Assembly (NCBI GenBank): GCA_944358675.1
Contig: CALVRN010000009.1
Coordinates: forward strand, 1 to 37,984
Direction of reading: 5' to 3'
From: an uncultured Bacilli bacterium
GTDB taxonomy: Bacteria > Bacillota_I > Bacilli_A > RF39 > UBA660
Length of the DNA: 37,984 nucleotides
The position numbers were made by a program, and so were the translations under genes. Positions 1,594-17,311 of the stretch are shown in pieces (position 1 is the stretch's first letter; each line of letters begins with the position of its first letter). The notes beneath the pieces are model-generated. The model searched no databases and was not told the DNA's origin. It saw nothing but the letters and a program-made list of their open reading frames with translations.

Positions 1594-3407
1594 TTTGGAT
1601 TTTTCTTATTTTCGTATTTTTTTCTTTCATTTGTGTTTAGTATTTTCTTTCTTAATCTATATGTTAGTGGGGTTACTTCGACTAGTTCATCTTCATTAAT
1701 ATAATCTAGGCAAACTTCTAGGCTCATTTCTCTTGGCCTTTTTAAGACAACGGTATGGTCTTTATTCGCACTTCTTGTGTTTGTTAATTGTTTACCTTTA
1801 GTAACATTAACAGCTAAATCATTTTCGTGGTTGTTTTCACCAACAATCATACCTTCGTAGACATCTGTACCAGGTGCTATAAACATAACTCCACGATCCT
1901 CTAATGAACCTAATGCATAAGCAGTAGATTTCCCATTATCAATAGAAACTAATACACCGGCTTTTCTTTCACCAATGTTACCAGTAGATAATGGTTCATA
2001 TGATTTGAAAGCATGAGATAATATTCCATATCCTTTTGTTAAAGTCATAAATTCAGTAGTAAAACCTATTAATCCTCTTGATGGAACGGTATATAATAAT
2101 TTAGTTTGGTTATCAAAAGGCTGCATATTTTCCATGGTTCCACCGCGATTACCTAATGCTTCAATAACTGGTCCGACATATTCTTCTGGAACTTCTATTT
2201 CAACATCTTCATAAGGTTCACATTTAACACCATCTATTTCTTTAATGATAATTTGTGGTTTTGAAACTTCTATTTCATAACCTTCTCTTCGCATGGTTTC
2301 AATTAAAATTGATAGGTGTAATTCACCTCTACCAGATACCATCCAAGATTCTGAATCGATTTGTTTTACTTTTAAAGAAACATCTTTTTCAGTTTCTTTC
2401 ATTAATCTATCTTCTATTTGTCTTGCGGTTAAGAATTTACCATCTCTTCCATTAAACGGGCTTGTATTTACTCCAAATGTCATTTGTAAGGTTGGCTCAT
2501 CAATTCTTAGTGGAGGTAATGCTTCTTCATGTCCTACTTCACATACTGTTTCACCAACTGAGATATCTGGAAGTCCCGCAATAGCTACAATATCTCCAGC
2601 ATGAGCTTCTTCTATTTCAATTTTATTTAATCCTAAAAAACCAAAAATCTTTTGAATTCTAAATTGTTTTTTAGTTCCATCTAAACGCATACAAGTTACT
2701 GTAGAGTTTACTTTTATGTGACCTCTTTTAACTAGGCCAATACCTATTCTTCCGACAAAATCATTATAGTCAAGTAGTGCGGGTTGAAATTGGAATGGAC
2801 CATTTTCATCTACTTTAGGAGCAGGAATGTTTTCAATTACGGCATCTAATATTGGATCCATGGTTTCTTTTTGGGTATTTAAATCTGGTGATGTACTTGA
2901 GGTTCCATTTAAAGCTGATGCATATAAAACTGGAAATTCTAGTTGTTCTAAAGATGCGCCTAATTCAATAAATAAATCCATAACTTCATCAACTACTTGT
3001 GCAGGTCTAGCAGATGGTTTATCTATTTTATTTACTACAACTATCGGAGTTACACCAGCGGCTAGGGCTTTTTTTAATACAAATCTTGTTTGTGGCATTG
3101 TTCCTTCATAGGCATCAACTACTAATAGTACACCATCTACCATGTTCATGATACGTTCTACTTCACCACCAAAGTCAGCATGACCTGGGGTATCTAATAT
3201 ATTAATCCTATAGTCTTTATAATGAATAGCTGTTGTTTTAGCTAAAATAGTGATTCCTCTTTCTCTTTCTAGGTCATTGGAATCCATAACTCTTTTTTGT
3301 ACTTCTTCGTTTTCTCTAAATGTTCCCGACTGTTTTAATAACTGGTCTACTAATGTAGTTTTACCATGGTCGACATGGGCAATTATCGCAATATTTCTCT
3401 CTTTCAT
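1590..3407 (-). CDS. typA: Ribosome-binding GTPase TypA/BipA
   Basis: A 605-residue translational GTPase of the BipA/TypA family, which binds the ribosome near the EF-G site and supports 50S assembly and growth under stress. The G1 motif AHVDHGKT is at residues 10-17, followed by DTPGH, NKID, domain II, and the EF-G-like domains III/V with GRGELHLSIL and PSRGLIGF. The family-specific C-terminal domain ends in RLRKKIL plus a Lys/Asn-rich tail. The open frame extends 10 codons upstream, but the ATG at 3407 is preferred because AGAGGT lies just before it and family members start with a short lead into RNIAIIAHVDHGKT. It has its own promoter at 3437-3465. Confidence 0.97.
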   Translation of the reverse strand: MKERNIAIIAHVDHGKTTLVDQLLKQSGTFRENEEVQKRVMDSNDLERERGITILAKTTAIHYKDYRINILDTPGHADFGGEVERIMNMVDGVLLVVDAYEGTMPQTRFVLKKALAAGVTPIVVVNKIDKPSARPAQVVDEVMDLFIELGASLEQLEFPVLYASALNGTSSTSPDLNTQKETMDPILDAVIENIPAPKVDENGPFQFQPALLDYNDFVGRIGIGLVKRGHIKVNSTVTCMRLDGTKKQFRIQKIFGFLGLNKIEIEEAHAGDIVAIAGLPDISVGETVCEVGHEEALPPLRIDEPTLQMTFGVNTSPFNGRDGKFLTARQIEDRLMKETEKDVSLKVKQIDSESWMVSGRGELHLSILIETMRREGYEIEVSKPQIIIKEIDGVKCEPYEDVEIEVPEEYVGPVIEALGNRGGTMENMQPFDNQTKLLYTVPSRGLIGFTTEFMTLTKGYGILSHAFKSYEPLSTGNIGERKAGVLVSIDNGKSTAYALGSLEDRGVMFIAPGTDVYEGMIVGENNHENDLAVNVTKGKQLTNTRSANKDHTVVLKRPREMSLEVCLDYINEDELVEVTPLTYRLRKKILNTNERKKYENKKNPK

Positions 3408-3436
3408 ATTTACTACCTCTCTTTGCACTAGGAACA

Positions 3437-3465
3437 ATTATAACACTAATGAAAATAATTGTAAA
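3437..3465 (-). promoter_or_regulatory. typA promoter with extended -10
   Basis: TTTACA (3460-3465), a 17-base spacer, then TATAAT (3437-3442) preceded by TGT, giving TGTTATAAT. It lies about 30 bases upstream of the chosen typA start. Confidence 0.85.
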
Positions 3466-3482
3466 TATTTAATTTTAAAGCG

Positions 3483-3506
3483 AAAAAAGTGCTAGAACTT
3501 TTTGCG
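3483..3506 (-). terminator. Terminator of the nudix / Cys-rich gene pair
   Basis: On minus, AAAAAGT pairs with ACTTTTTT around TCTAGC. The TAG stop of the Cys-rich gene (3492-3494) lies in the loop. Confidence 0.65.
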
Positions 3507-4082
3507 TTTTAATGTATAAAAATTAATGATCATTCTTATTACTATTCTGATGGTCCATAAAAAGAAACTACCATAATATAAATCCTTAATGACATCTTCT
3601 CTTTTAGAAAAGTAATCAGATTTTAAAATCATTCTGTTTCTAAATGATAATAGATTGAGTATTTTTAAATCATCAAATTTAATAACCTTACATCTTTTTT
3701 CTACTTCGGAACAAGTGAATAATTTACAAGTTAAGTTTTTAGTTGTACAGCCTTTAGTACTTTGATACAGGCACATTCTACAGCAGCCATTAATTGTTCC
3801 GTTTTGGAGTTTTTGCTGGACATAACACTTATTATCTTTAAATCCGCAAATGTTTTTATTTTTATAATGATTATCTATTTGCTTGCAGGCTTCATCATAA
3901 ATATAAGTTATTCTTGGCTTTCTTTTTTTAATATTTAAAGCTTTAATTATAGGTTTTACTTCTTCATAGTTTGTTTCCACAGTAAATTTTGTTTTTTTAA
4001 AAATAAATGATTTATAAAAAAAGAGCTTTCGATAAAATTTATCTAAAGCTGTTTGATTATTAATTTTAATTAATTTATTCAT
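3492..4082 (-). CDS. Cysteine-rich protein of unknown function, translationally coupled to a Nudix hydrolase
   Basis: A 196-residue protein whose middle (about residues 65-132) carries some ten cysteines, including CGFxxxxC, CCRMC, GCxxxxLxC and CxxxxxxC-type spacing, which suggests zinc or Fe-S binding. The flanks are basic, and the C-terminus has a hydrophobic stretch (FFLWTIRIVIRMIINFY) that could sit on or in the membrane. I do not recognise the family. Its ATG overlaps the 3' end of the Nudix gene by 8 bases, so the two are probably translated together. A role in metal binding or redox sensing is an inference from the cysteines only. Confidence 0.75.
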   Translation of the reverse strand: MNKLIKINNQTALDKFYRKLFFYKSFIFKKTKFTVETNYEEVKPIIKALNIKKRKPRITYIYDEACKQIDNHYKNKNICGFKDNKCYVQQKLQNGTINGCCRMCLYQSTKGCTTKNLTCKLFTCSEVEKRCKVIKFDDLKILNLLSFRNRMILKSDYFSKREDVIKDLYYGSFFLWTIRIVIRMIINFYTLKRKKF

Positions 4083-4518
4083 CTATTCCACCAAAGTAAT
4101 TTCTTAAAATATAATCAAAAGATATTTTTACATCTGGAAAAACTGGCATCTCTTCTAAATCATGTCTTGAGAACCAACCTATGTCATTACTTTCATCACT
4201 AACTTTTAATGGCTCTTCTGGGTTATTAGGTTTTCCAACATAAACCATATCGATCATTCTATCACCGTTTTCTTTACGGTTATATTGAACTCCTAACGGC
4301 CTTATTAGGTCATCTTCTCTTGGAAAGTGTTCTCCTATTAAAGTAGATTTGATACCTGTTTCTTCATAAACTTCTCTAACTGCAGCTTCTTCTGGAGTTT
4401 CATTTTCTTCTATATGACCGCCTGGTTGAAGCCATTTATTATATTTTTTATGTCTTACTAATAATACTTTTTTATTTTCTGGATTTATTATATATGCGGA
4501 TGCACAAAAATGTCTCAT
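4075..4518 (-). CDS. Nudix hydrolase
   Basis: A 147-residue Nudix-fold pyrophosphatase. The Nudix box is complete: G, five residues, E, seven residues, REVYEETGI (about residues 35-57), giving the Mg2+-binding glutamates. The substrate cannot be assigned; small single-domain members cleave oxidised nucleotides, NDP-sugars or dinucleotide polyphosphates. The frame could begin at a GTG at 4527, but that GTG is part of the TTAGGTGAT ribosome binding site, so the ATG at 4518 is the likely start. A TGTTATAAT box at 4535-4543 on minus is its probable promoter. The Cys-rich gene follows with an 8-base overlap. Confidence 0.92.
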   Translation of the reverse strand: MRHFCASAYIINPENKKVLLVRHKKYNKWLQPGGHIEENETPEEAAVREVYEETGIKSTLIGEHFPREDDLIRPLGVQYNRKENGDRMIDMVYVGKPNNPEEPLKVSDESNDIGWFSRHDLEEMPVFPDVKISFDYILRNYFGGIDE

Positions 4519-4534
4519 GTTTATCACCTAAATA

Positions 4535-4543
4535 ATTATAACA
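4535..4543 (-). promoter_or_regulatory. Extended -10 box upstream of the nudix gene
   Basis: TGTTATAAT on minus, 17 bases from the start codon. I see no good -35 box at 17 bases, so recognition would depend on the TGn extension. Confidence 0.55.
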
Positions 4544-4560
4544 GACAATTTGTTTGATTA

Positions 4561-5280
4561 CTAGTTTAAAATGTCATAGCTTTTAGAATTGACGTTTTTT
4601 CCGTAAACTTTGAAGTTTTCAGATAAATCTAAAGTTGCTAAAATAACATCTTCTATCTGATATCCTTTGACTTTTAGTTCATGCATCAACCATAGTTCAT
4701 CTTTATGCATAATTCTTAATGATTCGTGAATTATTTGTCCATCAATAATTAAATTAGCACATAAGCCGTTTTTTTCTTTTTTTATATTTAAATCTTTATT
4801 AATAGGCTGTTGATAATCGGTTTTAGGTAAAAAACTTATTTTACCATTTGCTTCCATTAAGGCATAATCAATTTCTGATATATCAAAGTAACCATTAATT
4901 CGGCATTCTTCTAATAAATCATTGATATCAAATTTTGTTTTTTTTAAATTTTTATATAATATTTTACCATCTTCTATAATAACCGTTGGATCTCCTATAA
5001 AGAATTTCCTTGCTTTTAGACTTTTTAAGGTGATTATTGAAACTAAATAGGCTACTACTCCAAATATTATTACAGCAACAGTTCCGTGCAGATACCCGGA
5101 GTCTAAATTTAAAGCCATTTCAGCGGCAAAATTTCCAATAGAAATACCAATAACGTAATCGAATAAACTAAATTGGGAGACTTGTTTTTTACCAATCATT
5201 TTAGTAACGAAGAATAAAGTAATGAGAGAAACTAAACAGCGTAATATAACATCTAATATTTCTATTATTTCCTTTGCCAT
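4561..5280 (-). CDS. YetF-like membrane protein (DUF421)
   Basis: A 239-residue member of the DUF421/YetF family. Three N-terminal membrane segments (about residues 8-30, 37-55 and 63-85, the last ones around GNFAAEMALN and AVIIFGVVAYLVSIIT) are followed by the cytosolic YetF domain with GDPTVIIEDGK, DLLEECRINGYFDIS and YALMEANGKISFLPK. The family has been linked to spore or envelope functions in Bacillus, but the molecular activity is unclear. The frame is open 33 codons further upstream; the ATG at 5280 is chosen because GGTGAT precedes it and family members start close to the first membrane helix. It follows tagO and a terminator. Confidence 0.9.
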   Translation of the reverse strand: MAKEIIEILDVILRCLVSLITLFFVTKMIGKKQVSQFSLFDYVIGISIGNFAAEMALNLDSGYLHGTVAVIIFGVVAYLVSIITLKSLKARKFFIGDPTVIIEDGKILYKNLKKTKFDINDLLEECRINGYFDISEIDYALMEANGKISFLPKTDYQQPINKDLNIKKEKNGLCANLIIDGQIIHESLRIMHKDELWLMHELKVKGYQIEDVILATLDLSENFKVYGKNVNSKSYDILN

Positions 5281-5306
5281 AAAATCACCATTTATATTAT
5301 GGGCGT

Positions 5307-5340
5307 AAAAAAAATAATTATACAAACGATAATTATTTTT
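5307..5340 (-). terminator. tagO terminator
   Basis: AAAAAATAATTAT pairs with ATAATTATTTTT around CAAACG. The tagO TAA (5333-5335) lies within the stem. The stem is almost all AT, so strength is uncertain. Confidence 0.6.
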
Positions 5341-6391
5341 CTTTATGATGTTTTTTATGAAAGGCTGCTTGGTCAACAATGATATCTGTTTTTAATACAA
5401 ATATTACAACAATTACTGTTAATATAGCATATATTATATATCCTAATTTTTGATCGTGAAGGGCATAGATAATTGAAGCTGCAGCAAACAAAATATCAAT
5501 ACCATAGATGATTAATACGGTTGTTCTATGTGAGAAATTTTTATTTAATAATTGATGATGTAAATGAGATTTATCTGGTTTTGAGATTTTTTCACCTTTT
5601 AATAATCTTCTAATAATAGCAAATACTGTGTCTAAAATTGGAATAGCTAAAATAAGAAGTGGAATAATTAAAGAGGTTAAAGTAACACTCTTAAATCCTA
5701 ATAGAGCAATTACAGCTATCATAAATCCCATAAATAGAGAACCAGAGTCTCCAGCAAATATACTAGCTGGATGAAAGTTATGAACTAAGAAGCCTAGAAC
5801 TGAACCTAGCATAATAAATGTTAAAACGAAGTCTAGTCCTGTTTTTCCCATAATAATTGCAATTATACCAATTGTTGCGAAATAAATTGAACTGATTCCA
5901 GCGGCTAAACCATCTAAACCATCAATTAAATTAATACAATTTAAGCATCCTAAAATAAAGAATATAGTAATAGGATATGCGAATACACCTAAGTCTAAAT
6001 AAAAACCAAATGCCGTTATATCTTGAATTAATAATTTTCCATAACATGTTACAACTATTGCGGCCATTAATTGGGCTACAAATTTAACTGATGCTTTTAA
6101 TGGTTTAATATCATCAATAGCACCTGTTAAAACAATAATAAAACTACCTATTAAAATAGAATTCATTGTACTACTAGGTTCACCAAATAACATATAGCCA
6201 AATAAGAAACCTAAGAAAATAGCTAGGCCCCCTAATCTTGGCATTGGCTTACTATGAACTTTTCTTTTGTTTGGAATATCCAAAGCTCCAACATGAATAG
6301 CAATTTTTTTTATAAATGGAATTAAGATTGCGACAAATAAGAATGTTGTAATAATCATAAGTAATATTTTTGTTATTTCTGTTTGTCCCAT
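5333..6391 (-). CDS. tagO: Undecaprenyl-phosphate GlcNAc-1-phosphate transferase (TagO/WecA family)
   Basis: A 352-residue polytopic membrane enzyme of the MraY/WecA superfamily that starts wall teichoic acid or polysaccharide synthesis by moving GlcNAc-1-P from UDP-GlcNAc to undecaprenyl phosphate. Visible motifs are HSKPMPRLGG near residue 45, the catalytic DDIKPL region, NLIDGLDGLAAG near 154, FAGDSGSLFMGF near 213 and the His motif KSHLHHQLL near 274. About ten membrane segments can be counted. Length matches Bacillus TagO. SD is AGAGGTGAG. No other teichoic acid genes are adjacent, so the polymer made is unknown. Confidence 0.95.
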   Translation of the reverse strand: MGQTEITKILLMIITTFLFVAILIPFIKKIAIHVGALDIPNKRKVHSKPMPRLGGLAIFLGFLFGYMLFGEPSSTMNSILIGSFIIVLTGAIDDIKPLKASVKFVAQLMAAIVVTCYGKLLIQDITAFGFYLDLGVFAYPITIFFILGCLNCINLIDGLDGLAAGISSIYFATIGIIAIIMGKTGLDFVLTFIMLGSVLGFLVHNFHPASIFAGDSGSLFMGFMIAVIALLGFKSVTLTSLIIPLLILAIPILDTVFAIIRRLLKGEKISKPDKSHLHHQLLNKNFSHRTTVLIIYGIDILFAAASIIYALHDQKLGYIIYAILTVIVVIFVLKTDIIVDQAAFHKKHHKEK

Positions 6392-6440
6392 TGAAACTCA
6401 CCTCTAATAAATATATTTTACCATATTTTATAGGATAATG

Positions 6441-6956
6441 CTAATTAATATTTGGCTGTTTAAATTGATAACTCATACCTAATACTGCTATTATTATGAG
6501 TACAATAATAGATAAAATATTATTTTGAAAATTGAATAAATTAAAGGCATTTTCGGTTATTAAACTAGCCCCTCCTAGACTAGTTGATATAATCATGAGT
6601 GGTCTTGTGAATTTAACACCTAAAATACCAGCAATTATTCCTGAAATTACACTAATAATTGTTTGAATATTACTTTCTAAACCCAGGTTATTACATAAAG
6701 AATAAACAGTGATTGCACAAAGTAAAAAAATACCGACCAAATATAAGTTATAAGAAATAAAGCCAAATAATAATGCAATGATAGCTGATACAATATATAT
6801 TATTGTTTGATCTGTAATAAAATTTGGTAATACCACAATCCCTAGATTAAATCCAATGATTAGTCCCATTATAGCTATTAAGGTTTTATTTAATTTATAA
6901 CCGAAAAAACAACTCATCAATCCAATTAATACTGCTACAATATTAACAATATTCAT
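6441..6956 (-). CDS. TMEM198/DUF4203-like membrane protein
   Basis: A 171-residue protein made of about seven short hydrophobic helices with repeated small-residue motifs (FFGYKL, GLIIGFNLG, GIIAGILGVKF, GGASLI). This resembles the TMEM198/DUF4203 family, whose function in bacteria is unknown. It has an AAAGGAAG ribosome binding site and a TATAAT at 6977-6982 just after the terminator of the M18 peptidase gene, so it starts its own transcript, perhaps continuing into tagO 49 bases later. No catalytic residues are evident. Confidence 0.75.
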   Translation of the reverse strand: MNIVNIVAVLIGLMSCFFGYKLNKTLIAIMGLIIGFNLGIVVLPNFITDQTIIYIVSAIIALLFGFISYNLYLVGIFLLCAITVYSLCNNLGLESNIQTIISVISGIIAGILGVKFTRPLMIISTSLGGASLITENAFNLFNFQNNILSIIVLIIIAVLGMSYQFKQPNIN

Positions 6957-6976
6957 TTTTACACTTCCTTTTTTAT

Positions 6977-6985
6977 ATTATACCA
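6977..6985 (-). promoter_or_regulatory. Probable promoter (-10) of the TMEM198-like gene
   Basis: TATAAT at 6977-6982 on minus preceded by TGG, giving TGGTATAAT, immediately downstream of a terminator and about 20 bases from the ATG at 6956. No clear -35. Confidence 0.55.
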
Positions 6986-6986
6986 T

Positions 6987-7011
6987 AGAAAAAGACGAAT
7001 TACTCGTCTTT
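6987..7011 (-). terminator. Terminator of the M18 aminopeptidase gene
   Basis: On minus AAAGACGA pairs with TTCGTCTTTTT around GTAA. The peptidase TAA (7000-7002) lies inside the hairpin. Confidence 0.8.
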
Positions 7012-8412
7012 ATAGAAAACCTCATATGCTTTATAAGCATTATAAATATCAAATTTACTAGTTATTTCATAAGGTGAGTGCATAGATAATACTGGAACTC
7101 CACAATCAATTACATCGGAACCTCTATCGGCTAAAATGTAAGCTATTGTTCCACCAGCTCCAACCCCTATTTTACCCATTTCACTATTTTGATAGGTTAT
7201 ATTATTTTTTTCAAATAAGTTTCTAATATATCCAACAAATTCAGCATTAGCATCTGAGGCTCCTCCTTTAGAAGCACTTCCTGTATATTTAATTACAGAA
7301 ATTCCATGTCCAATATATGATTCGTTGTTTTTTTCATATATGCTTTGAAAATTTGGGTTATATCCAGCAGTAACGTCAGCAGATAATACTCTTGATGATT
7401 TTAGACAAGTATCTAATAATCCTGGTTTGTTACCAATAGTTTTATTTAATATTTGATTTAAGAAATATTCAAATACTCTTGATGACATACCGGTGTTTCC
7501 CATACTACCAATTTCTTCTTTATCGGCTAATAAGCATATTGCTGTTCTTTTTGGATTTTCAATGTTTAATAATGCTTTTAGGCTTGTGTAAGCACATACT
7601 CTATCATCTTGACCATATCCAGCAACTAAACTTTCATCAAAGCCTAAGTTTCTAGCCTTCATAGCAGGAACAAATTCTATTTCGCTACTTACAAAATCTC
7701 TTTCAACAATACCATACTTTTTATTTAGAATATTTAGAATATTTAATTTTACTTTTTCAGATATTTCTTCTTCAGTTTCATATGGAATACTACCAACTAA
7801 GATATTTAAATCTTCACCCGAAATAGCATCATTTAGTTTTTTCTTGTTTTGCTCTGACGCTAGATGAGGAAGCAAATCGGCAATGGTAAATACTGGTTCA
7901 TCATCTTTTTCACCGATGTTTATTTCTATTTTTTTATCTTTAGTCATAATGATTCCATGCATGCTTAATGGAATATTTACCCATTGATATTTTTTTATTC
8001 CACCATAATAATGTGTCTTTAATAGTGCTAACTCATTACTTTCATATAGTGGATTTGGTTTTAAGTCTAATCTTGGGCTATCAATGTGAGCTCCAATAAT
8101 ATTAAATCCTTTAACCAGATCATCTGACCCAATAACTGCAGCATAAACATTTTTATATCTATTGATATAATATACTTTGTCTCCAGCTTTTAAGGTGTTT
8201 AAATTATCAATATTTTTAAAGCCATTATTTTCTAATATTTCTGTGAATTTTTTTGTACATTCTCTTTCTGTTTTTGCCTCATTTATGAAATCAATGTATT
8301 CTTTTGAAAATTCAAATATTTTTTTCTTTTTGTTTTCTTCTATATTTTCCCAGCCGTTTTTCTTTGTTCTAAACAATTTTTCTTTTAAAATTTGTGTTTC
8401 TGATTTTTCCAT
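7000..8412 (-). CDS. M18 family aminopeptidase
   Basis: A 470-residue metallo-aminopeptidase of the M18 family (aspartyl aminopeptidase-like), a cytosolic enzyme that removes N-terminal, usually acidic, residues and forms large tetrahedral complexes. The co-catalytic zinc ligands can be seen: GAHIDSPRLDLKP near residue 106, DDRVCAYTSL near 269, DKEEIGSMGNTGMSS near 302, SADVTAGYNP near 348 and SMHSPYEI near 445. Length agrees with the family. SD is AAAGGGGAT. It follows mbl by 28 bases. The first 22 coding bases are identical to those of the unrelated gene at 30958-31302. Confidence 0.95.
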   Translation of the reverse strand: MEKSETQILKEKLFRTKKNGWENIEENKKKKIFEFSKEYIDFINEAKTERECTKKFTEILENNGFKNIDNLNTLKAGDKVYYINRYKNVYAAVIGSDDLVKGFNIIGAHIDSPRLDLKPNPLYESNELALLKTHYYGGIKKYQWVNIPLSMHGIIMTKDKKIEINIGEKDDEPVFTIADLLPHLASEQNKKKLNDAISGEDLNILVGSIPYETEEEISEKVKLNILNILNKKYGIVERDFVSSEIEFVPAMKARNLGFDESLVAGYGQDDRVCAYTSLKALLNIENPKRTAICLLADKEEIGSMGNTGMSSRVFEYFLNQILNKTIGNKPGLLDTCLKSSRVLSADVTAGYNPNFQSIYEKNNESYIGHGISVIKYTGSASKGGASDANAEFVGYIRNLFEKNNITYQNSEMGKIGVGAGGTIAYILADRGSDVIDCGVPVLSMHSPYEITSKFDIYNAYKAYEVFYKDE

Positions 8413-8440
8413 GTTATCCCCTTTCTAGTTATATTATGGA

Positions 8441-9448
8441 CTAATAATTTTTATTTAAACCACTTTCTAGCAAAGGAATATTTTCAAGTAATACTCCTGT
8501 TCCTTCAACAACACAAGTTAATGGGCTTTCAGCTACAAATACAGGGACTTTTAATTCATGACTTAAAAGTTCATCAATACCATCTAATAAAGCTCCACCA
8601 CCTGTAATAACTATGCCTTTATCAATGATATCGGCAGATAGTTCTGGTGGGGTTTGTTCTAGGACTGATTTAGCTGTATTTACTATGACATATGCACTTT
8701 CTCTTAAGGCTTCTTCAACTTCATCTGAGGTCAAAGTTATGGTGTGAGGTAATCCTGTCACTAAATCTCTACCCCTTACTTCCATTTTTTCGTTTTTTGA
8801 TCCTGGAAAAACTGTTCCAATTTGAAATTTTATTTCTTCAGCTGTACGGTCTCCAACAAGTAATTTATATTTTTCTCTAATATATTTAATAATGTCATTG
8901 TCAAAAACATTTCCAGCTATTTTAATTGATGAAGATGTAACGATACCTCCTAGTGATAATACAGCAACATCGGTTGTTCCACCACCAATATCAATAACCA
9001 TATTACCACTTGGCTTAGAAATATCCATGCCAGCTCCTACGGCTGCTACTTTAGGTTCTTCTTCTAGATATACTTTTCTGGCTCCTGTTTTTTCTGCAGC
9101 TTCTCTAATAGCATTTTTTTCAACTTGTGTAATATTTGATGGACAGCAAATTAAAATTCTTGGTCTACCAAAAAAACTTTTACCATTAACTTTTCTGATG
9201 AAGTTATTTAACATTATTTCAGTTATTTCAAAATCGGCAATTACTCCATCTTTCATTGGTCTTATAGCTTTTACTTGTCCTGGGGTTCTTCCAAGCATTT
9301 CTTTAGCAGTAGTTCCAACAGCAACTGGTCTTTTTGTCTCTTCATCGATAGCAACTACACTTGGTTCATTTAAAACTATACCTTGTCCTTTAATGTAAAT
9401 AAGAACATTAGCTGTTCCTAAATCTATTCCAATATCTTTTGAAAACAT
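8441..9448 (-). CDS. mbl: Rod-shape actin homologue Mbl (MreB family)
   Basis: A 335-residue MreB-family actin homologue that polymerises on the inner membrane and guides lateral wall synthesis. The phosphate 1 motif GIDLGTANVLIY is at the N-terminus, phosphate 2 is DIGGGTTDVAVLSLGG near residue 155, and the adenosine motif TGGGALLDGID is near 286. It is called Mbl rather than MreB because it lies directly after spoIIID, the arrangement found in Bacillus, and no mreC or mreD follows. AAGGGTGAT precedes the start. A GATATAAT box in the 35-base gap to spoIIID may provide an internal promoter. Confidence 0.93.
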   Translation of the reverse strand: MFSKDIGIDLGTANVLIYIKGQGIVLNEPSVVAIDEETKRPVAVGTTAKEMLGRTPGQVKAIRPMKDGVIADFEITEIMLNNFIRKVNGKSFFGRPRILICCPSNITQVEKNAIREAAEKTGARKVYLEEEPKVAAVGAGMDISKPSGNMVIDIGGGTTDVAVLSLGGIVTSSSIKIAGNVFDNDIIKYIREKYKLLVGDRTAEEIKFQIGTVFPGSKNEKMEVRGRDLVTGLPHTITLTSDEVEEALRESAYVIVNTAKSVLEQTPPELSADIIDKGIVITGGGALLDGIDELLSHELKVPVFVAESPLTCVVEGTGVLLENIPLLESGLNKNY

Positions 9449-9483
9449 ATTATCACCCTTTTTCTTAAAATATTATATCATAC

Positions 9484-9756
9484 CTAGCATGGTTTGGGTA
9501 TGTTTAATGAACTTTTTTGGTACTTTTTTTTAGTTGCTTCTCCGCCTTTTATATGTCTTGTTTTTATGTGGTTTTCAAAAATTGTTTGCACTTCTTTATA
9601 TAATGTTAAATCTACTATTTTTAATCTATCTTTTAAATCCTTATGAATGGTACTTTTAGAAAGGTTAAATATTTTAGCGAGCTCTCTTAGTGTTTTTTTA
9701 GTTTTGAGTATATAATAAGCTTCTTTATATACTCTTTCCTTTATATGTTCTCCCAT
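9484..9756 (-). CDS. spoIIID: Sporulation transcriptional regulator SpoIIID
   Basis: A 90-residue DNA-binding protein matching SpoIIID in length and sequence. It has the helix-turn-helix TLRELAKIFNLSKSTIHKDL (residues 23-42) and the C-terminal basic segment that also contacts DNA. SpoIIID acts in the mother cell under sigma-E control, switching many genes on or off before sigma-K takes over. SD is AAGGAGG. It sits between an AAA ATPase gene and mbl; in Bacillus the ATPase is absent. Its presence with spoIID and spoIIQ argues for a working engulfment and mother-cell programme. I could not confirm a sigma-E promoter. Confidence 0.95.
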   Translation of the reverse strand: MGEHIKERVYKEAYYILKTKKTLRELAKIFNLSKSTIHKDLKDRLKIVDLTLYKEVQTIFENHIKTRHIKGGEATKKKYQKSSLNIPKPC

Positions 9757-11089: not shown

Positions 11090-11154
11090 AAAGTTTTGCA
11101 ATTGTATTTGCAAAACTTTATTTTTTTTGTTTTTTTTGCAAGTATGTTTGCAAA
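11090..11154. repeat. Twin bipartite motifs and inverted repeat upstream of the AAA ATPase promoter
   Basis: Two copies of a 21-bp motif, TTTGCAAA-N5-TTGCAAAA on minus, lie at 11094-11114 and 11134-11154, exactly 40 bp apart. The first copy is the core of a larger inverted repeat (AAAGTTTTGCAA at 11090-11101, TTGCAAAACTTT at 11108-11119) that touches the -35. The inverted repeat also looks like a terminator on plus because eight Ts follow, but no plus-strand gene is present. An operator is the better explanation. Confidence 0.65.
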
Positions 11155-11156
11155 AA

Positions 11157-11184
11157 TATAAAAAAGAGTTTTAGTTACTCTTTA
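11157..11184 (-). terminator. spoIIQ terminator
   Basis: On minus AAAGAGT pairs with ACTCTTT followed by TTTAT. The spoIIQ TAA (11171-11173) lies in the loop. Confidence 0.75.
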
Positions 11185-11818
11185 ATTGATCTACTGTTTT
11201 GTTATAACAATTATCTGGATTTACATATGTACCATCTACTGATATTTCAAACAAAACATGTTTACCCAAATCTTTTTCTAAGTTAGATTCACCAGCTTTG
11301 CCAATAACTGTACCTAGTGCAACAGTATCACCTTCTTTAACAGTTACCTCGCCTAGGCTTTGGTAAGTTGTAATGACATTGTTTTCATGTTCTATGGTTA
11401 CAATTTTACCCATTAGTTTGTCTTCTTTAACTGATGTTACTTTACCAGGTAAAACACTGACTACATCAAATGTATCATCAAGTCCACCATAAGCTATACC
11501 ATTATTTTGAATGTAAGTTGTGTCATAGTTTATGATAGCATTTTGTTGAGTTTTTTCATCACTTTTATAGTCGTAGAAACTATTTAATACTTTGACACTC
11601 TCATTTGTGTATGGTTTAGCAATGACATTTTGAGTATTTACAACAGATTGTACTCCATCATCAAATAACCTTGATACATAAGTATAATCTTCTTTTGTCT
11701 CTTTATCATTTAATGATGCTTGTGATAAATCTGCATACCAAAGTCCACCTAAAAGTAGTGCGCTGATGCCTATACAAATACCATAAATTGCAGGTTTGTT
11801 TAATTTTATCTTTTCCAT
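11171..11818 (-). CDS. spoIIQ: SpoIIQ-like forespore protein with degenerate LytM (M23) domain
   Basis: A 215-residue protein with one N-terminal membrane helix (about residues 10-27) and an extracellular LytM-type domain (about 110-205). SpoIIQ joins SpoIIIAH across the engulfing membranes to form the forespore channel. The M23 metal motifs are altered: the usual HxxxD site reads NGIAYGG, YAHL reads YQSL, and HxHFEI reads HVLFEI, so endopeptidase activity is unlikely, as in other degenerate SpoIIQ proteins. The ATG at 11818 is preferred over one 21 bases upstream because AGAGGTGA precedes it. It follows spoIID by 46 bases, the order seen in Bacillus. Confidence 0.9.
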   Translation of the reverse strand: MEKIKLNKPAIYGICIGISALLLGGLWYADLSQASLNDKETKEDYTYVSRLFDDGVQSVVNTQNVIAKPYTNESVKVLNSFYDYKSDEKTQQNAIINYDTTYIQNNGIAYGGLDDTFDVVSVLPGKVTSVKEDKLMGKIVTIEHENNVITTYQSLGEVTVKEGDTVALGTVIGKAGESNLEKDLGKHVLFEISVDGTYVNPDNCYNKTVDQLKSN

Positions 11819-11864
11819 TTTTTTCACCTCTACTATCATTTTGGATAGTTTTGGTTTTTTTATA

Positions 11865-12776
11865 CTAGTTTTTTTTAATTTCGGTGTTTTGATAGTAATG
11901 TTTTAAAATTTGGTCATATTTATATCCTTCTTTTGCCATACCATTTGCTCCATATTGACTCATACCAACTCCATGACCAAATCCTTTGGTGGTTATTGTA
12001 ACATTGTTTTCGTTTTGAACTATATCAAAATAGTTTGATCTTAAATTTAATTTGGTTGCTAAATCTCTTCCATTAATTTCTGTTCCGTTTATTTTTAAGG
12101 TTCTGGTTCTACCAGTTGATGTTTTTGATGTCACTTCTATAGTTAATGTTTGATTATATTGTAAGTTTAATTTTTTATAAAATTCTTCTAAGGTAAAAGT
12201 ATAGGTATCTGTGTAAGCAGGTGATGCTTCATCCCATTTACTATCAACACTTCTTAAGTAAGGTAAAGCTGATACAAAAACTTCTTCACTATTTTCGGTT
12301 GCACCAACACTTGTTGAAAAAAACATAGCATTTATAACTTTTCCTTCATAAGTTAGATATTCACCGCTAGTTTCGTTAATTGCTTCCTTTATTTTGTTTA
12401 TTTTTTCTGGATATTCTTCTTTCCAATTTTCTTTTAATTCTTGATCAGTGAGATATACTTGATTAGCTGTGGTATTTAAAACATCATATTCTTTGTCTTT
12501 AGTTGCAGTCATTTGATACATGGCATAACTTCTAGATGCTACTGCTTGAGCTTTTAGAGCTTCTAATTCAAAGGTTGCGGGCATTTCACCAGCAACAACA
12601 CCTTTAATATAATCTTCAAATGGTACTTCATTTATTATTCCTGTTTTTTCATCTTTAACTCTGATTATATTGTTTGTAACATATTTAAATTTTATTTCAT
12701 CTGTTTTTACAAAAATTTTGACAAACAAAAAAGGTATTATAACAACTAAAAGCGCTACTATAATAAGCTTTTTCAT
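11865..12776 (-). CDS. spoIID: Stage II sporulation protein D, lytic transglycosylase
   Basis: A 303-residue membrane-anchored enzyme (helix at about residues 4-23) of the SpoIID/LytB family. SpoIID is the lytic transglycosylase that thins septal peptidoglycan with SpoIIP and SpoIIM so engulfment can begin. The signature GEMPATFELEALKAQAVASR is at about residues 63-82 and contains the acidic residues expected for catalysis; the C-terminal GFGHGVGMSQYGANGMA is also typical. It is somewhat shorter than the Bacillus protein. The gene lies between a DUF1146 gene and spoIIQ and appears to be co-transcribed from the rpiB promoter, with possible sporulation promoters not identified. Confidence 0.96.
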   Translation of the reverse strand: MKKLIIVALLVVIIPFLFVKIFVKTDEIKFKYVTNNIIRVKDEKTGIINEVPFEDYIKGVVAGEMPATFELEALKAQAVASRSYAMYQMTATKDKEYDVLNTTANQVYLTDQELKENWKEEYPEKINKIKEAINETSGEYLTYEGKVINAMFFSTSVGATENSEEVFVSALPYLRSVDSKWDEASPAYTDTYTFTLEEFYKKLNLQYNQTLTIEVTSKTSTGRTRTLKINGTEINGRDLATKLNLRSNYFDIVQNENNVTITTKGFGHGVGMSQYGANGMAKEGYKYDQILKHYYQNTEIKKN

Positions 12777-12790
12777 ATCTTAGTTCCTTC

Positions 12791-12988
12791 CTATATGAAT
12801 CTTGTACTTTCAAAGAAATCATAGAAAAAATTTACGACTAAGTATGATAAAGCCATAGCGACTATTAGATATAATACCCTAGATGAATAATATCTATTCT
12901 TTTTAAATATGCCGGATATATTTAAACTTTCTAAAGCCCATATGGTAATAATTACCGTTACAATGTATATTAATCCTTTAAGTGACAT
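12791..12988 (-). CDS. DUF1146 family small membrane protein (YwzB-like)
   Basis: A 65-residue protein with two membrane helices (about residues 4-20 and 38-57) and the ending SYLVVNFFYDFFE, which is typical of DUF1146. In Bacillus the DUF1146 gene ywzB also lies upstream of spoIID, with murAA and ywmB between. Function is unknown. Its ATG overlaps the rpiB stop as TGATG, so translation is coupled to rpiB, and spoIID follows after 14 bases. Confidence 0.88.
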   Translation of the reverse strand: MSLKGLIYIVTVIITIWALESLNISGIFKKNRYYSSRVLYLIVAMALSYLVVNFFYDFFESTRFI

Positions 12989-13509
12989 CAGTTTTTATAA
13001 TTGTCTAACATTTCAATACGTCTTTTGTGACGTTCTTCATTACTAAAAGGAGTTTTTAAAAATACATCGGTAATGTCTTTAGCTCGATATAAAGGCATAT
13101 TTCCATTAATAGCAATTATATTAGCATCATTATCTTTTCTTGTGTATTTTACTTCTTTGATGTTATCTACTTTTGCACACCTTACTTTGTCTACTTTGTT
13201 ACAAGCGATACTAATGCCTATTCCACTACCACATATTGCTATTCCTTTTTCAACTTTGCCATCTCTAACAGCTTTTCCTAATTTAAAACCATATTCTGGA
13301 TAGTCATGACTTGCTTTATCATCACAGCCATAGTCAATGACAGTATATCCTTTTTTAGTTAAATATTTTGTAAGTTTTTGTTTTAGCTTAAAACCTCTAT
13401 GGTCACTCGCTATTCCTATCTTATTATCTGGTATATTTAAATTTAAAATTGTTTGTTCTTGATAATCATTTTTTACAATATCTTGTAAAGAAGCTTGCTT
13501 TTCTCCCAT
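12988..13509 (-). CDS. rpiB: RpiB/LacAB-family sugar-phosphate isomerase (probable ribose-5-phosphate isomerase B)
   Basis: A 173-residue RpiB/LacAB isomerase, predicted to interconvert ribose 5-phosphate and ribulose 5-phosphate. ASDHRGFKLK (about residues 34-43) binds the phosphate and sugar, CGSGIGISIACNKV (about 93-106) carries the catalytic cysteine, and RHKRRIEML is at the C-terminus. Two oddities: about 26 residues precede the usual first strand, and this start is backed by a strong AAAGGAGG; and the position that is His in the common HNDAN motif is Asp (TRKDNDAN). An alternative is a related isomerase acting on another sugar phosphate. First gene of the rpiB-DUF1146-spoIID-spoIIQ run. 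Confidence 0.85.
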   Translation of the reverse strand: MGEKQASLQDIVKNDYQEQTILNLNIPDNKIGIASDHRGFKLKQKLTKYLTKKGYTVIDYGCDDKASHDYPEYGFKLGKAVRDGKVEKGIAICGSGIGISIACNKVDKVRCAKVDNIKEVKYTRKDNDANIIAINGNMPLYRAKDITDVFLKTPFSNEERHKRRIEMLDNYKN

Positions 13510-13532
13510 AGTTATATCCTCCTTTTAAAATA

Positions 13533-13561
13533 ATTATAACATTAAAATGTGAAAAGTTTAA
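13533..13561 (-). promoter_or_regulatory. Promoter of the rpiB-spoIID-spoIIQ run
   Basis: TGTTATAAT with TATAAT at 13533-13538 on minus; the hexamer 17 bases upstream is TTAAAC (13556-13561), a weak -35. The TGn extension probably compensates. Confidence 0.65.
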
Positions 13562-13562
13562 G

Positions 13563-13591
13563 AAAAAAACATTTGCTTTAAAAACAAATGT
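13563..13591 (-). terminator. Terminator of the rpsF-ssb-rpsR operon
   Basis: On minus ACATTTG pairs with CAAATGT plus flanking A/T pairs, followed by seven Ts. It begins two bases after the rpsR stop. Confidence 0.88.
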
Positions 13592-13592
13592 C

Positions 13593-13808
13593 TTATTTTA
13601 CGAATGGTAATAAAGCCATAAATCTTGCTTTTTTAACTTCGTTTGCAATATATCTTTGGTGTTTTGCACAAGCACCTGTAATTCTTCTTGGTAAAATTTT
13701 ACCTTTATCTAAACTGACATATTTCTTTACAGTATCATCTTTATAACTTACATGCTTACCAGCACACATTTGACATACTTTTCTTTTTCTTCTACGAAAT
13801 TCTGCCAT
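13593..13808 (-). CDS. rpsR: 30S ribosomal protein S18
   Basis: A 71-residue S18, which binds S6 and the central domain of 16S rRNA on the platform of the small subunit. Recognised by [27 protein letters not shown] and [23 protein letters not shown]. Cysteines at about 12, 15 and 47 with the following His fit the zinc-binding form of S18. Last gene of the conserved rpsF-ssb-rpsR operon, 10 bases after ssb; SD is AGGAGG. Confidence 0.98.
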
Positions 13809-13818
13809 AACTATCCTC

Positions 13819-14274
13819 CTATTCTAAGAAATTATCATCAATTGAAACATTATCCCCAAAATCGGCAAAAGGATCGTCATCAACATTAACATCGTTAGTA
13901 GGTGCGGGAGCATCCTGATAATCATATGGAGTTGTGTTTGTTCTAGCTTCTGATTGTCTTCTTGAATCTAAAAATTGAACATTATCAGCAACTACATCAG
14001 TTGTATATCTTTTACTTCCATCCTGAGCAGTATAGCTTCCTGTTTGGATTCTTCCTTCAACAGAAACTCTACTACCTTTATCTAGATAATTTGCTATATT
14101 TTCAGCTTGACGACGCCAAACAACAATGTTAATAAAATCAGCTTCTCTTTCACCTTGGGCATTATTAAATGTACGGTTAACTGCTAAACTGAATCTTGTA
14201 TAAGGAACATTTCCTCCTGTATACCTTAATTCTGGTTTTGCCGTTAGTCTACCAACTAAACATACTCTGTTCAT
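13819..14274 (-). CDS. ssb: Single-stranded DNA-binding protein
   Basis: A 151-residue SSB with the OB fold in the first 105 residues ([61 protein letters not shown]). SSB coats single-stranded DNA and recruits repair and replication partners by its C-terminal tip. The tail here is acidic but ends IDDNFLE rather than the usual DDDLPF-type tip, although DDDPF occurs about 18 residues earlier. The ATG at 14274 is chosen over an in-frame upstream one because AGAGGT precedes it. It overlaps no gene: rpsF ends at 14291. Confidence 0.96.
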
Positions 14275-14290
14275 AAAACTACCTCTTTTC

Positions 14291-14581
14291 TTACTTTTCA
14301 ACTTTTGTAATTAAATGACGGACAATGTCATTATTGATAAGAGCTAAACGGTCAAATTCTTTAATTGCTTTGTCATCTTTAGCTTCAACTTCAAAAACGA
14401 AATAGTATCCACTTTTGAAATCTTTAATTTCATAAGCAAATTCTCTTTGTCCCATGTTTTCTTCTTTTGTTACTTTACCACCATTTTTCTTGATGATTTC
14501 TGAAAAGTCTTTAACAACTTTTTTTACTTCATCTTCACCTAATGTTGGTCTTATGATAAACATGATTTCATAGTTTTTCAT
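14291..14581 (-). CDS. rpsF: 30S ribosomal protein S6
   Basis: A 96-residue S6 ([62 protein letters not shown]). S6 forms a heterodimer with S18 on the 30S platform. First gene of the operon; preceded by a perfect AAGGAGGTG. A structured 5' leader and strong promoter lie immediately upstream and could provide S6:S18 feedback. Confidence 0.98.
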
Positions 14582-14583
14582 TT

Positions 14584-14645
14584 TTCCACCTCCTTATGGC
14601 CATAAGGCTTTCATTTTGAAAGCAAGGAGTAAATTAATTACTCGG
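14584..14645 (-). promoter_or_regulatory. Structured leader of rpsF, candidate S6:S18 autoregulatory element
   Basis: The transcript would begin near 14645 with AACCGAGTAA. Three hairpins can be drawn: GAGTAA with TTACTC, GCTTTC with GAAAGC, and CCTTAT with ATAAGG, the last overlapping the Shine-Dalgarno. A CCG triplet at the first stem and alternative pairing of CTCCTT with AAGGAG fit a translational switch. Known rpsF leaders respond to the S6:S18 complex through a CCG; assignment here is by position and sequence only. Confidence 0.5.
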
Positions 14646-14650
14646 TTTTG

Positions 14651-14679
14651 ATTATACCAAAATTTATGAAAAAAGTAAA
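14651..14679 (-). promoter_or_regulatory. Sigma-A promoter of rpsF-ssb-rpsR
   Basis: On minus TTTACT (14674-14679), 17 bases, TATAAT (14651-14656), with TGG before the -10. The -35 lies inside the terminator of the upstream pseudogene. Confidence 0.88.
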
Positions 14680-14692
14680 CTAGTTATGTTTA
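14668..14692 (-). terminator. Terminator at the end of the reverse transcriptase remnant
   Basis: On minus AGTAAAC pairs with GTTTACT around ATAACTA, followed by TTTTT. The remnant's final TAA is in the left arm. Confidence 0.75.
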
Positions 14693-15544
14693 CTTTCTAT
14701 ATGAATTTACTGAACAAAAATATTTTTGAAAGGTAATTATTTCTTTTGTATAAAGTTTATGTTTTGTTTTTAAATTTTTAATTTTCTTGTATCTTGTTTT
14801 ATTTGATGATTAGTTTTCCTTTTAATTTAAAATTATAACCTAGAAAAGTAAAACCGTGTTTTATGTTTGTGATTTCAGTTTTGTTATTATTTAATTTTAA
14901 GCTATATTCTTCTAATTTGTGTTTTATTTGTTTTAAGCAATATTTTAAATATTCTTTATCTTTGTGAATTAAAATAAAATCATCCATGTAATGAATTATA
15001 TATTTAACTTTTAAATCATGAATAATATAATGATCGACTTCTGATAAATAATATACCGATAGTATTTGTGATGATAACCCACCAATAGGTAATCCTTTTC
15101 CTTTTACATAATAAGGAATATGACCTAAGTTATTACCATCTTTAACTACTTTTATCTTTTCATTCACATATTTGTAATCGGTACTGTCAATTATCTTAGA
15201 AACAATATTATATTCATCATTATCCAATTTATCTTTAAGCATACTTTTTAATTTATCATGGTCAATAGTATAAAAATATTTGGAGATATCTAATTTTAAA
15301 ACGTAAAATTCACCATATTTTTTGTTTAAATTTAAATACTTTTTTAATAATTTAAGACCATAGCTAGTCCCCATATTCTTTCTAGTGCCCACATTCCTAA
15401 TATCTAGATATCTTTCTAATTTAGGTATTAATACTGTACTGTTCTAAAAATATAATGATTGATTAATTTATCAACTAAATTTAAACTCATAATAATTCGT
15501 TCTTTGGGTTCACGTATTAAAAAAATATTATACTCTTCTTTATT
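14690..15544 (-). pseudogene. Decayed DGR-like reverse transcriptase with two frameshifts and no 5' end
   Basis: The longest intact part (14799-15392) holds motif A LKLDISKYFYTID, motif B LPIGGLSSQ, motif C YIIHYMDDF, LNNNKTEI and FTFLGYNF. IGxxxSQ plus YMDD is the signature of diversity-generating retroelement RTs. Upstream, in another frame, NIFLIREPKERIIMSL and DKLINHYIFRTV supply motif 1; the frame breaks at a tandem TACTG repeat (15432-15441), and removing one copy joins RTV to LIPKLERYLDIRN. Downstream, after the TAA at 14799, a third frame gives NKTRYKKIKNL and ITFQKYFCSVNSYRK, the usual RT tail. The 5' end is lost at the stop of the neighbouring gene. No template or variable repeat was recognised. 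Confidence 0.85.
15432..15441. repeat. 5-bp tandem duplication TACTG x2 that breaks the RT frame
   Basis: TACTGTACTG on plus. Deleting one unit restores an uninterrupted reading frame across reverse transcriptase motifs 1 and 2. Confidence 0.8.
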
Positions 15545-16043
15545 TTAATTTAATAACAGTTGTAGTAATTAGGTCAACAATAAATAATATAGTGAGTATT
15601 ATAGTTATAAATTTAGGGGTTTTCTCTTCTAATTTATCTATTATTGGTTTTACAAAATAAATTATAAGAATACTAGCGATACCCCAGACTAATGACATTT
15701 CTAATGCTACATATTTTCCGATATTATATTTATAATGTTTATAATTCCAAAGTGTTTCATGAAATAGGTTTTCAATTAATATTCCACCTAACCATTCAAT
15801 TAGAGTTAAAACTATTGTTAAAATTATAAATGTAACTACCGTTTCTATTAATCTACTTTTATGCATGTTTTTAAATATTTTTCTTGATATAATTATTGTT
15901 AATATGGCTCCAAAACCATAAACTGGTGTCCAAGGTCCATATAAAATTCCACTAGAAAAATGACCTGAAACTATTAAAGTAAATATACCTTCTATAATAA
16001 AACCTAAAATGGAATAAATAAAAAAACAATTAATTAAGTACAT
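15540..16043 (-). CDS. CmpB-like membrane protein (putative ABC-transporter type IV, PF06541-like)
   Basis: A 167-residue protein with five or six membrane helices and the family marks SSGILYGPWTPVYGFGA, LIEWLGGILIE and MSLVWGIASILI. It belongs to the small integral membrane family annotated as putative ABC-transporter type IV / CmpB; transport has not been demonstrated for most members. The ATG at 16043 follows GGTGATTA, whereas the frame's first ATG four codons earlier is part of that site. Located 38 bases after ychF and next to the RT remnant, so probably in the ychF transcript. Confidence 0.85.
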   Translation of the reverse strand: MYLINCFFIYSILGFIIEGIFTLIVSGHFSSGILYGPWTPVYGFGAILTIIISRKIFKNMHKSRLIETVVTFIILTIVLTLIEWLGGILIENLFHETLWNYKHYKYNIGKYVALEMSLVWGIASILIIYFVKPIIDKLEEKTPKFITIILTILFIVDLITTTVIKLK

Positions 16044-16081
16044 ATTAATCACCATTATTAATATGTCTTTTTTAATTGTTT

Positions 16082-17179
16082 TTAAACGTTAAATCTAAAG
16101 TGACATATGTCGCCATCTTGCATAACGTAGTCTTTACCTTCTAATCTTAATCTTCCAGCTTCTTTAACTTTTAATTCTGTTCCATATTTTTTTAAATCAT
16201 CAAAGCTCATAATTTCCGCTTTAATGAATCCTTTTTGGAAGTCGGTATGAATTATACCTGCACACTGCGGAGCTTTCATTCCTTGTTTATAAGTCCAAGC
16301 TCTAACTTCATCTGGACCTGCTGTTAAGTAGGTTGATAGTCCTAATAATTTATAAGATGATTTTATTAATTTATCTAAACCACTTTCTTCGATACCTAAG
16401 TCATTTAAAAATTCCTTTTTATCTTCATCATCTAATTCAGCTAATTCTGCTTCTATTTTAGCACATATTACAACTACTTCTGCTTGTTCTTTAGATGCAT
16501 ATTCTTTTAATGTTTTTACATATTCATTTTCAGTTGTTATTTCATCTTCGTTAACATTTGCGACATAGATGATTGGTTTTAAAGTTAATAAATTAAATGG
16601 TTTTAAGATTTTTAATTCTTCTTCAGTCAAATTTAAGTTTCTTGGATTAATATTCTTTTCTAAATTTTCTTTTAGTTTTTCTAATAATTCTGCTTCTTTC
16701 ATGGCTTCTTTGTCATTGGCTAATCTGGCTTTTTTGCCCATTCTACCTAATCTATTTTCAATTACTTCTAAATCAGCTAATTCTAATTCAACGTTTATTA
16801 CTGAGGCATCTCTAATTGGATCAACGTTACCAGATACATGGGTAACATTTGGATCTTCAAAACATCTGACAACTTCACATATAGCATCTACTTCTCTTAT
16901 ATGAGATAAGAATTTATTTCCTAATCCTTCACCTTTAGAAGCACCTTCTACTAATCCTGCAATATCGGTAAATTCAAAGGTTGCGGGAATTGTTTTTTTG
17001 GGTTTATATAAGTTTTCTAAAAACGTTACTCTTTCATCTGGAACAGTAACCATTCCGACATTAGGTTCTATTGTTGCGAAAGGGTAGTTAGCCGCTAAAA
17101 TATTTTGTTTTGTTATAGCATTAAATAAAGTTGATTTTCCAACATTAGGTAGACCTACGATTCCTGCTGTTAAACTCAT
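16082..17179 (-). CDS. ychF: Ribosome-binding ATPase YchF (OLA1 subfamily)
   Basis: A 365-residue Obg-related P-loop protein. Walker A GLPNVGKST is at residues 8-16, switch regions include DIAGLVEGASKGEGLGN (about 69-85), a coiled-coil insert covers about 135-200, and the TGS/DUF933 C-terminus contains TAGPDEVRAWTYKQG, FQKGFIKAEI and DGDICHFRFNV. YchF binds ribosomes and prefers ATP to GTP. The start has GGTGAT upstream. In Bacillus ychF lies between the parAB region and rpsF, the same relative order as here. Confidence 0.97.
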   Translation of the reverse strand: MSLTAGIVGLPNVGKSTLFNAITKQNILAANYPFATIEPNVGMVTVPDERVTFLENLYKPKKTIPATFEFTDIAGLVEGASKGEGLGNKFLSHIREVDAICEVVRCFEDPNVTHVSGNVDPIRDASVINVELELADLEVIENRLGRMGKKARLANDKEAMKEAELLEKLKENLEKNINPRNLNLTEEELKILKPFNLLTLKPIIYVANVNEDEITTENEYVKTLKEYASKEQAEVVVICAKIEAELAELDDEDKKEFLNDLGIEESGLDKLIKSSYKLLGLSTYLTAGPDEVRAWTYKQGMKAPQCAGIIHTDFQKGFIKAEIMSFDDLKKYGTELKVKEAGRLRLEGKDYVMQDGDICHFRFNV

Positions 17180-17197
17180 TATTCATCACCAGTAGAT

Positions 17198-17203
17198 ATT
17201 ATA
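17198..17203 (-). promoter_or_regulatory. -10 box of ychF
   Basis: TATAAT on minus, 19 bases upstream of the ATG; the -35 region is A/T-rich without a clear hexamer. Confidence 0.5.
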
Positions 17204-17311
17204 CTATAATTTGTGTTTTTTTTAAAGAAAACATAAAAAGTTAATTTTTTTTAATTAAATAAAAAGGAAATGTGGAATAAACGTCGTATGTTATACATAG
17301 AAGGTGAATAT

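Follow-up and report, generated by a model that had tools for sequence, protein, structure and literature searches.

The minus-strand feature at 15543-14690 of the window, the whole 37,984-nucleotide stretch of DNA analysed here, is a disrupted reverse transcriptase (RT) of the type carried by diversity-generating retroelements (DGRs), a known kind of element of which this copy is a pseudogene. The feature is almost certainly the 3' end left from a DGR that had once been acquired between a CmpB-like gene and rpsF and was then broken by a deletion and two frameshifts.

The RT relic and its family

The RT coding remains (15543-14690, minus strand) agree nearly to the base with the position of the fossil RT in the original prediction (14690-15544), and its setting in a housekeeping block holds as well. 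The insertion site is flanked on the left by an intact CmpB-like gene (15540-16055, minus strand; PF06541, E=1.3e-37) and on the right by an intact rpsF (14291-14581, minus strand; Ribosomal_S6 profile match), with SSB, S18 and YchF also found. Translation and DNA alignment to the RTs of relatives (loci L034-L038) place an N-terminal remnant covering the motif 0/1 region, with the sequence ...KEEYNIFLIREPKERIIMSLNLVDKLINHYIFRT, at about 15440-15543 (minus strand). It does not share the frame of the main piece and lacks the first ~53 RT codons, which are deleted. The main remnant is an open frame at 14799-15440 (minus strand) with the motifs DISKYFY, GLPIGGLSSQ and YMDD, so that the predicted IGGLSSQ and YMDD are both present in the open part. 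The C-terminal remnant (NKTRYKKIKNLKTKHKLYTKEIITFQKYFCSVNSYRK to the stop; 14690-14808, minus strand), likewise placed by translation and DNA alignment, reads NKTRYKKIKNLK...CSVNSYRK and stops at 14692-14690. The pieces had been assigned to three frames and occupy only two: the N- and C-terminal pieces share one because the +5 and -8 changes sum to -3, and the middle piece uses the other.

The open part matches Pfam RVT_1 (E=6.3e-22) and PHROG 1423 (E=1.4e-52), the family into which Brt, the RT of the DGR of Bordetella phage BPP-1, also falls (E=1.9e-125); BPP-1 Brt is also the best solved-structure match of the relic (8ub7). The relic is far beyond chance because the sister genome G028 (locus L033) has the same one at 98% identity. 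An Rfam scan of the window gave no match above the gathering score.

A maximum-likelihood RT tree was built from the relic, DGR-locus RTs, BPP-1 Brt, and 11 group II and 5 retron-type RTs of the same class. The relic, all DGR-locus RTs and BPP-1 Brt form one clade (UFBoot 99), while the group II and retron RTs form their own (100 each), and within the tree the relic groups with L034, a syntenic copy. In DGR RTs, [ILV]GxxxSQ stands in place of QGxxxSP. The relic (IGGLSSQ) and all DGR-locus RTs compared have IGxxxSQ; the group II and retron RTs in the comparison all have QG, with an SP ending apart from one SV and two SA. Profile search and phylogeny, through the PHROG 1423 match and the DGR clade, therefore bear out a DGR-type RT. 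Phylogenetic placement among group II or retron RTs, named beforehand as counting against it, was not found because the tree puts the relic inside the DGR clade.

Complete elements at the same site

Two related gut Bacilli MAGs (loci L035 and L036) carry a DGR in exactly this spot. The gene order is ychF-CmpB, then target, template repeat (TR), MutS_I, Avd and RT, then rpsF-ssb-rpsR, and the flanks mostly share 81-83% identity with the window, the RTs 78-79% with the relic. Window positions 15541-17230 (CmpB, ychF) and 11147-15569 (RT to rpsF and beyond) align on either side of the L035 cassette. There, CmpB ends at 1952 and is followed by a small gene on the opposite strand, a target gene (2351-3274; DUF6273, 5.9e-6) ending in the variable repeat (VR), the TR (about 3697-3806), a MutS-I-like gene (4039-4398), a frameshifted Avd (4391-4729), the RT (4695-5750) and rpsF from 5822. 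In L036, the target gene ending in the VR lies at 853-1779, and Avd is intact and matches bAvd (PF22296, 1.4e-10). MutS_I (PF01624) stays below cut-off in L036 itself (E=0.098) and is matched by the positionally equivalent genes of L064 (7.8e-6) and L124 (4.3e-9). In a third locus, L034, the RT extends beyond the window's breakpoint up to the contig edge.

Mismatches between TR and VR fall mainly or entirely at template adenines in this element family. In L036, 13 of 15 mismatches are at template A (p about 1e-6) and in L071 17 of 18, with many other loci likewise adenine-directed; the scan recovered the annotated TR/VR of BPP-1 as a positive control (17/17 at A). Weighing somewhat against this picture, the L035 copy may be partly aged, since just 17 of its 25 mismatches are at template A, and its Avd is frameshifted. 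The syntenic relatives thus show what defines the ancestral element as a DGR: adenine differences between TR and VR, Avd and accessory genes, and a target with a C-terminal variable domain. Together with the relic RT inside the DGR clade, the syntenic DGRs of L035 and L036 support the view of a DGR that occupied this site and then decayed. The intact orthologous loci have both TR and VR, which for them excludes the alternative in the original prediction, a relative lacking variable repeats.

Two side observations concern these loci. A likely IS transposase gene, recognized by eye and without a Pfam match, lies between target and TR in L036 (1944-3125), which also weighs somewhat against the picture, although the TR/VR relation there is still adenine-directed. 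A small conserved gene of ~60 aa adjoins CmpB on the opposite strand in L035 (1963-2151, minus strand) and in L036, L123, L124, L128, L129 and L133; it has no Pfam match, is present with and without a DGR, and is lost in the window.

The prediction also held that a cryptic TR or target might survive elsewhere in the genome. Neither was found by a repeat scan of the window and a TR search of the window's own genome (1.21 Mb, 45 contigs, 85% complete). The whole window contains no A-biased repeat pair, and hence no TR/VR as in a functional DGR, and its matches to the TRs of relatives do not exceed those of shuffled controls. The L035 TR region had no convincing match in the genome (best 30 bp, E=0.0027, treated as noise). 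A separate complete DGR (L064) does lie on contig C14 at 5913-9733. It comprises a DUF6273-like target (5913-7367; VR 7174-7302), a TR (7517-7645), a MutS_I gene (7898-8302), Avd (8299-8661) and an RT (8627-9733) that is 56% identical to the relic. Its TR and VR differ at 21 positions, all at template A (p about 8e-15), and a search of the genome for remote VRs of this TR returned only its own VR. At least ten genes similar to the DUF6273-type target occur in the genome, on contigs C2, C3, C7, C13, C14, C15, C16, C26 and C27. Near those examined, no A-biased TR/VR pair was found except on C14.

Lesions, order of decay and competing histories

The CmpB stop codon is fused to RT codon ~54 in the window lineage. 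The junction is a 10-bp sequence, ATAAAGAAGA (15534-15543, minus strand; sequence comparison), that overlaps this stop codon. G014, whose CmpB gene is the closest that is not identical, has the same 10-mer at the 3' end of CmpB, and L035 has it inside the RT gene, so that both parental breakpoints are represented. On the simplest reading, one deletion of ~2.9 kb (L035 about 1950 to 4855) would have occurred at a 10-bp direct repeat. The first frameshift is a 5-bp insertion near 15438 (15428-15445, minus strand), common to G028 and absent from L034-L038. The second is an 8-bp deletion near 14803 (14796-14819, minus strand), which is private to the window genome. G028 has the large deletion and the 5-bp insertion and lacks the 8-bp deletion, which gives the order of events: large deletion and 5-bp insertion, later the 8-bp deletion. 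In addition, at two positions where 20 DGR-locus RTs are otherwise invariant the window has a different residue (A to G and, before YMDD, R to H), and the G028 relic reads DISKCFY in place of DISKYFY, with C at the second Y-type position. Pairwise dN/dS of the relic against its relatives is 0.11-0.15; most of the divergence therefore accrued under purifying selection, and the loss is recent. The RT frame is no longer intact (N-terminus deleted, two frameshifts), and to judge from its sequence the window copy is now without DGR function because the deletion, the 5-bp insertion and the 8-bp deletion broke the element.

The history that best accommodates these observations begins in a clade of gut Bacilli with small genomes, which would have gained a DGR in the gap separating the CmpB-like gene from rpsF. 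In the intact element, an error-prone RT with Avd, and probably with the MutS-I-like protein, would copy the non-coding TR while mutating it at template adenines, and the cDNA would overwrite the VR at the end of a DUF6273-type gene for a putative surface protein. In the window lineage, recombination or slippage via the 10-bp direct repeat may then have produced the ~2.9 kb deletion, presumably removing target, VR, TR, MutS-I-like gene, Avd and the RT N-terminus (~53 codons). The 5-bp insertion and later the 8-bp deletion broke what remained of the RT.

Three other accounts were weighed against this one. A 5'-truncated RT fragment might have been inserted, by partial retro- or recombinational insertion, in a lineage where a complete DGR never occupied the site. 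The relic does hold only the 3' part of the RT, and cassettes of its family sit at other sites too (for example L038, L040 and L071). However, whole cassettes occupy the identical site in L035 and L036, the L034 RT crosses the breakpoint up to the contig edge, the relic groups with this syntenic copy, and the junction bears 10 bp of homology from both parental breakpoints, all of which makes such an insertion very improbable. Still less credit goes to the idea that the RT gene is intact and that mistakes in sequencing or assembly created its frameshifts. The 8-bp deletion occurs in a single MAG and could indeed be an assembly error, but the presence of the large deletion and the 5-bp insertion in a second MAG, G028, argues against this for those two. 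Even if the frameshifts are ignored, the N-terminus, Avd and TR are absent, and the altered invariant residues, like the C in the DISKYFY motif of G028, also speak against an intact gene.

The remaining account, that the RT belongs to a group II intron, a retron or a defence (DRT) system, has next to no probability. TIGR04416 (group II; E=7.8e-23) and PADLOC RT models do match the relic, but no DGR-named model appeared in PADLOC, which is an anti-phage defence library, and the NCBIfam hits fall far under their curated cut-offs (81 bits against 300 for TIGR04416; 37 bits against 235 for the retron model NF038233). The relic has neither the QGxxxSP motif nor a place in the group II clade, and it lies outside the retron clade. 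Such an identity is contradicted by the tree, the motif, PHROG 1423 and the TR/VR at orthologous loci; membership in all three groups was rejected on tree and motif.

Gain and loss across the genus, and known systems

In nine genomes of the same genus (G032, G021, G011, G006, G013, G007, G019, G022 and G026) the site is empty, with a gap of about 150-230 bp between rpsF and CmpB, and in G012 and G020 the cassette is present. G018 and G004 each have the RT close to the end of a contig, and in G004 a different contig carries the target next to CmpB. At the site itself, G014 contains a transposase along with other genes, and G028 has, on another contig, a related element with TR and RT (L038). 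At the same CmpB-rpsF site, G002 (L124; G002:C1:51500-56500, 1135-2873) has kept the target, TR, VR and MutS-I-like gene but neither Avd nor RT; part of the cassette was lost there independently. In L124, 20 of 21 TR/VR mismatches are at A. G002 has other RTs, which may act on this RT-less cassette in trans. The modules left at the site are an RT remnant in the window and G028, and target, TR and MutS-I-like gene without RT or Avd in G002. A broader proposal, in which DGR cassettes repeatedly dock in the CmpB-rpsF gap and are then dismantled module by module, with orphan TR/VR possibly diversified in trans by DGRs of the same genome, is speculative and rather unlikely.

The relic reveals no new mechanism; its value is a clear decay sequence. 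Close genomes supply a stepwise case of DGR loss at one site, from empty site and complete element to shared deletion and private frameshift. Gut Bacilli with small genomes both acquire and lose DGRs, a point that aids in judging 'RT-only' DGR hits in surveys. A degraded DGR with the RT alone left has already been reported in Anabaena sp. 90 (PMC7517822), and in the window, too, the RT is the sole cassette sequence left. The Anabaena remnant is flanked by transposases (PMC7517822), whereas the window has a microhomology deletion and known intact syntenic orthologues.

The BPP-1 DGR (brt, avd, TR, VR, mtd) resembles this family in its RT clade (UFBoot 99) and in the Avd-like accessory and adenine-directed TR/VR of the intact orthologues. 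In contrast to BPP-1, the relatives lie in bacterial chromosomes amid housekeeping genes, with the TR between target and accessories and an added MutS-I-like gene, and the window copy is dead. DGRs with a MutS-like (MSL, PF01624) accessory are already on record (Wu et al., NAR; cited in PMC10053308). As in those MSL DGRs, intact relatives have a MutS_I protein, which is either encoded beside Avd or, in L049, joined to the C-terminal end of the RT. Unlike in the MSL DGRs, the relatives' cassette has the MutS-I-like protein and Avd together, both of which are deleted in the window. Literature searches on Tenericutes DGRs and on MSL by name yielded nothing useful.

The L049 gene (1865-3346) encodes a 494-aa DGR RT with a MutS_I domain at its C-terminus (2.1e-5), and the RTs of L050, L054 and L056, of similar length (501-514 aa), appear by eye to have a comparable C-terminal extension. 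DGR RTs from three records titled Candidatus Saccharibacteria (L048, L055 and L058) group with those of the Bacilli loci L049, L054 and L056, reflecting either horizontal transfer or mislabelled bins.
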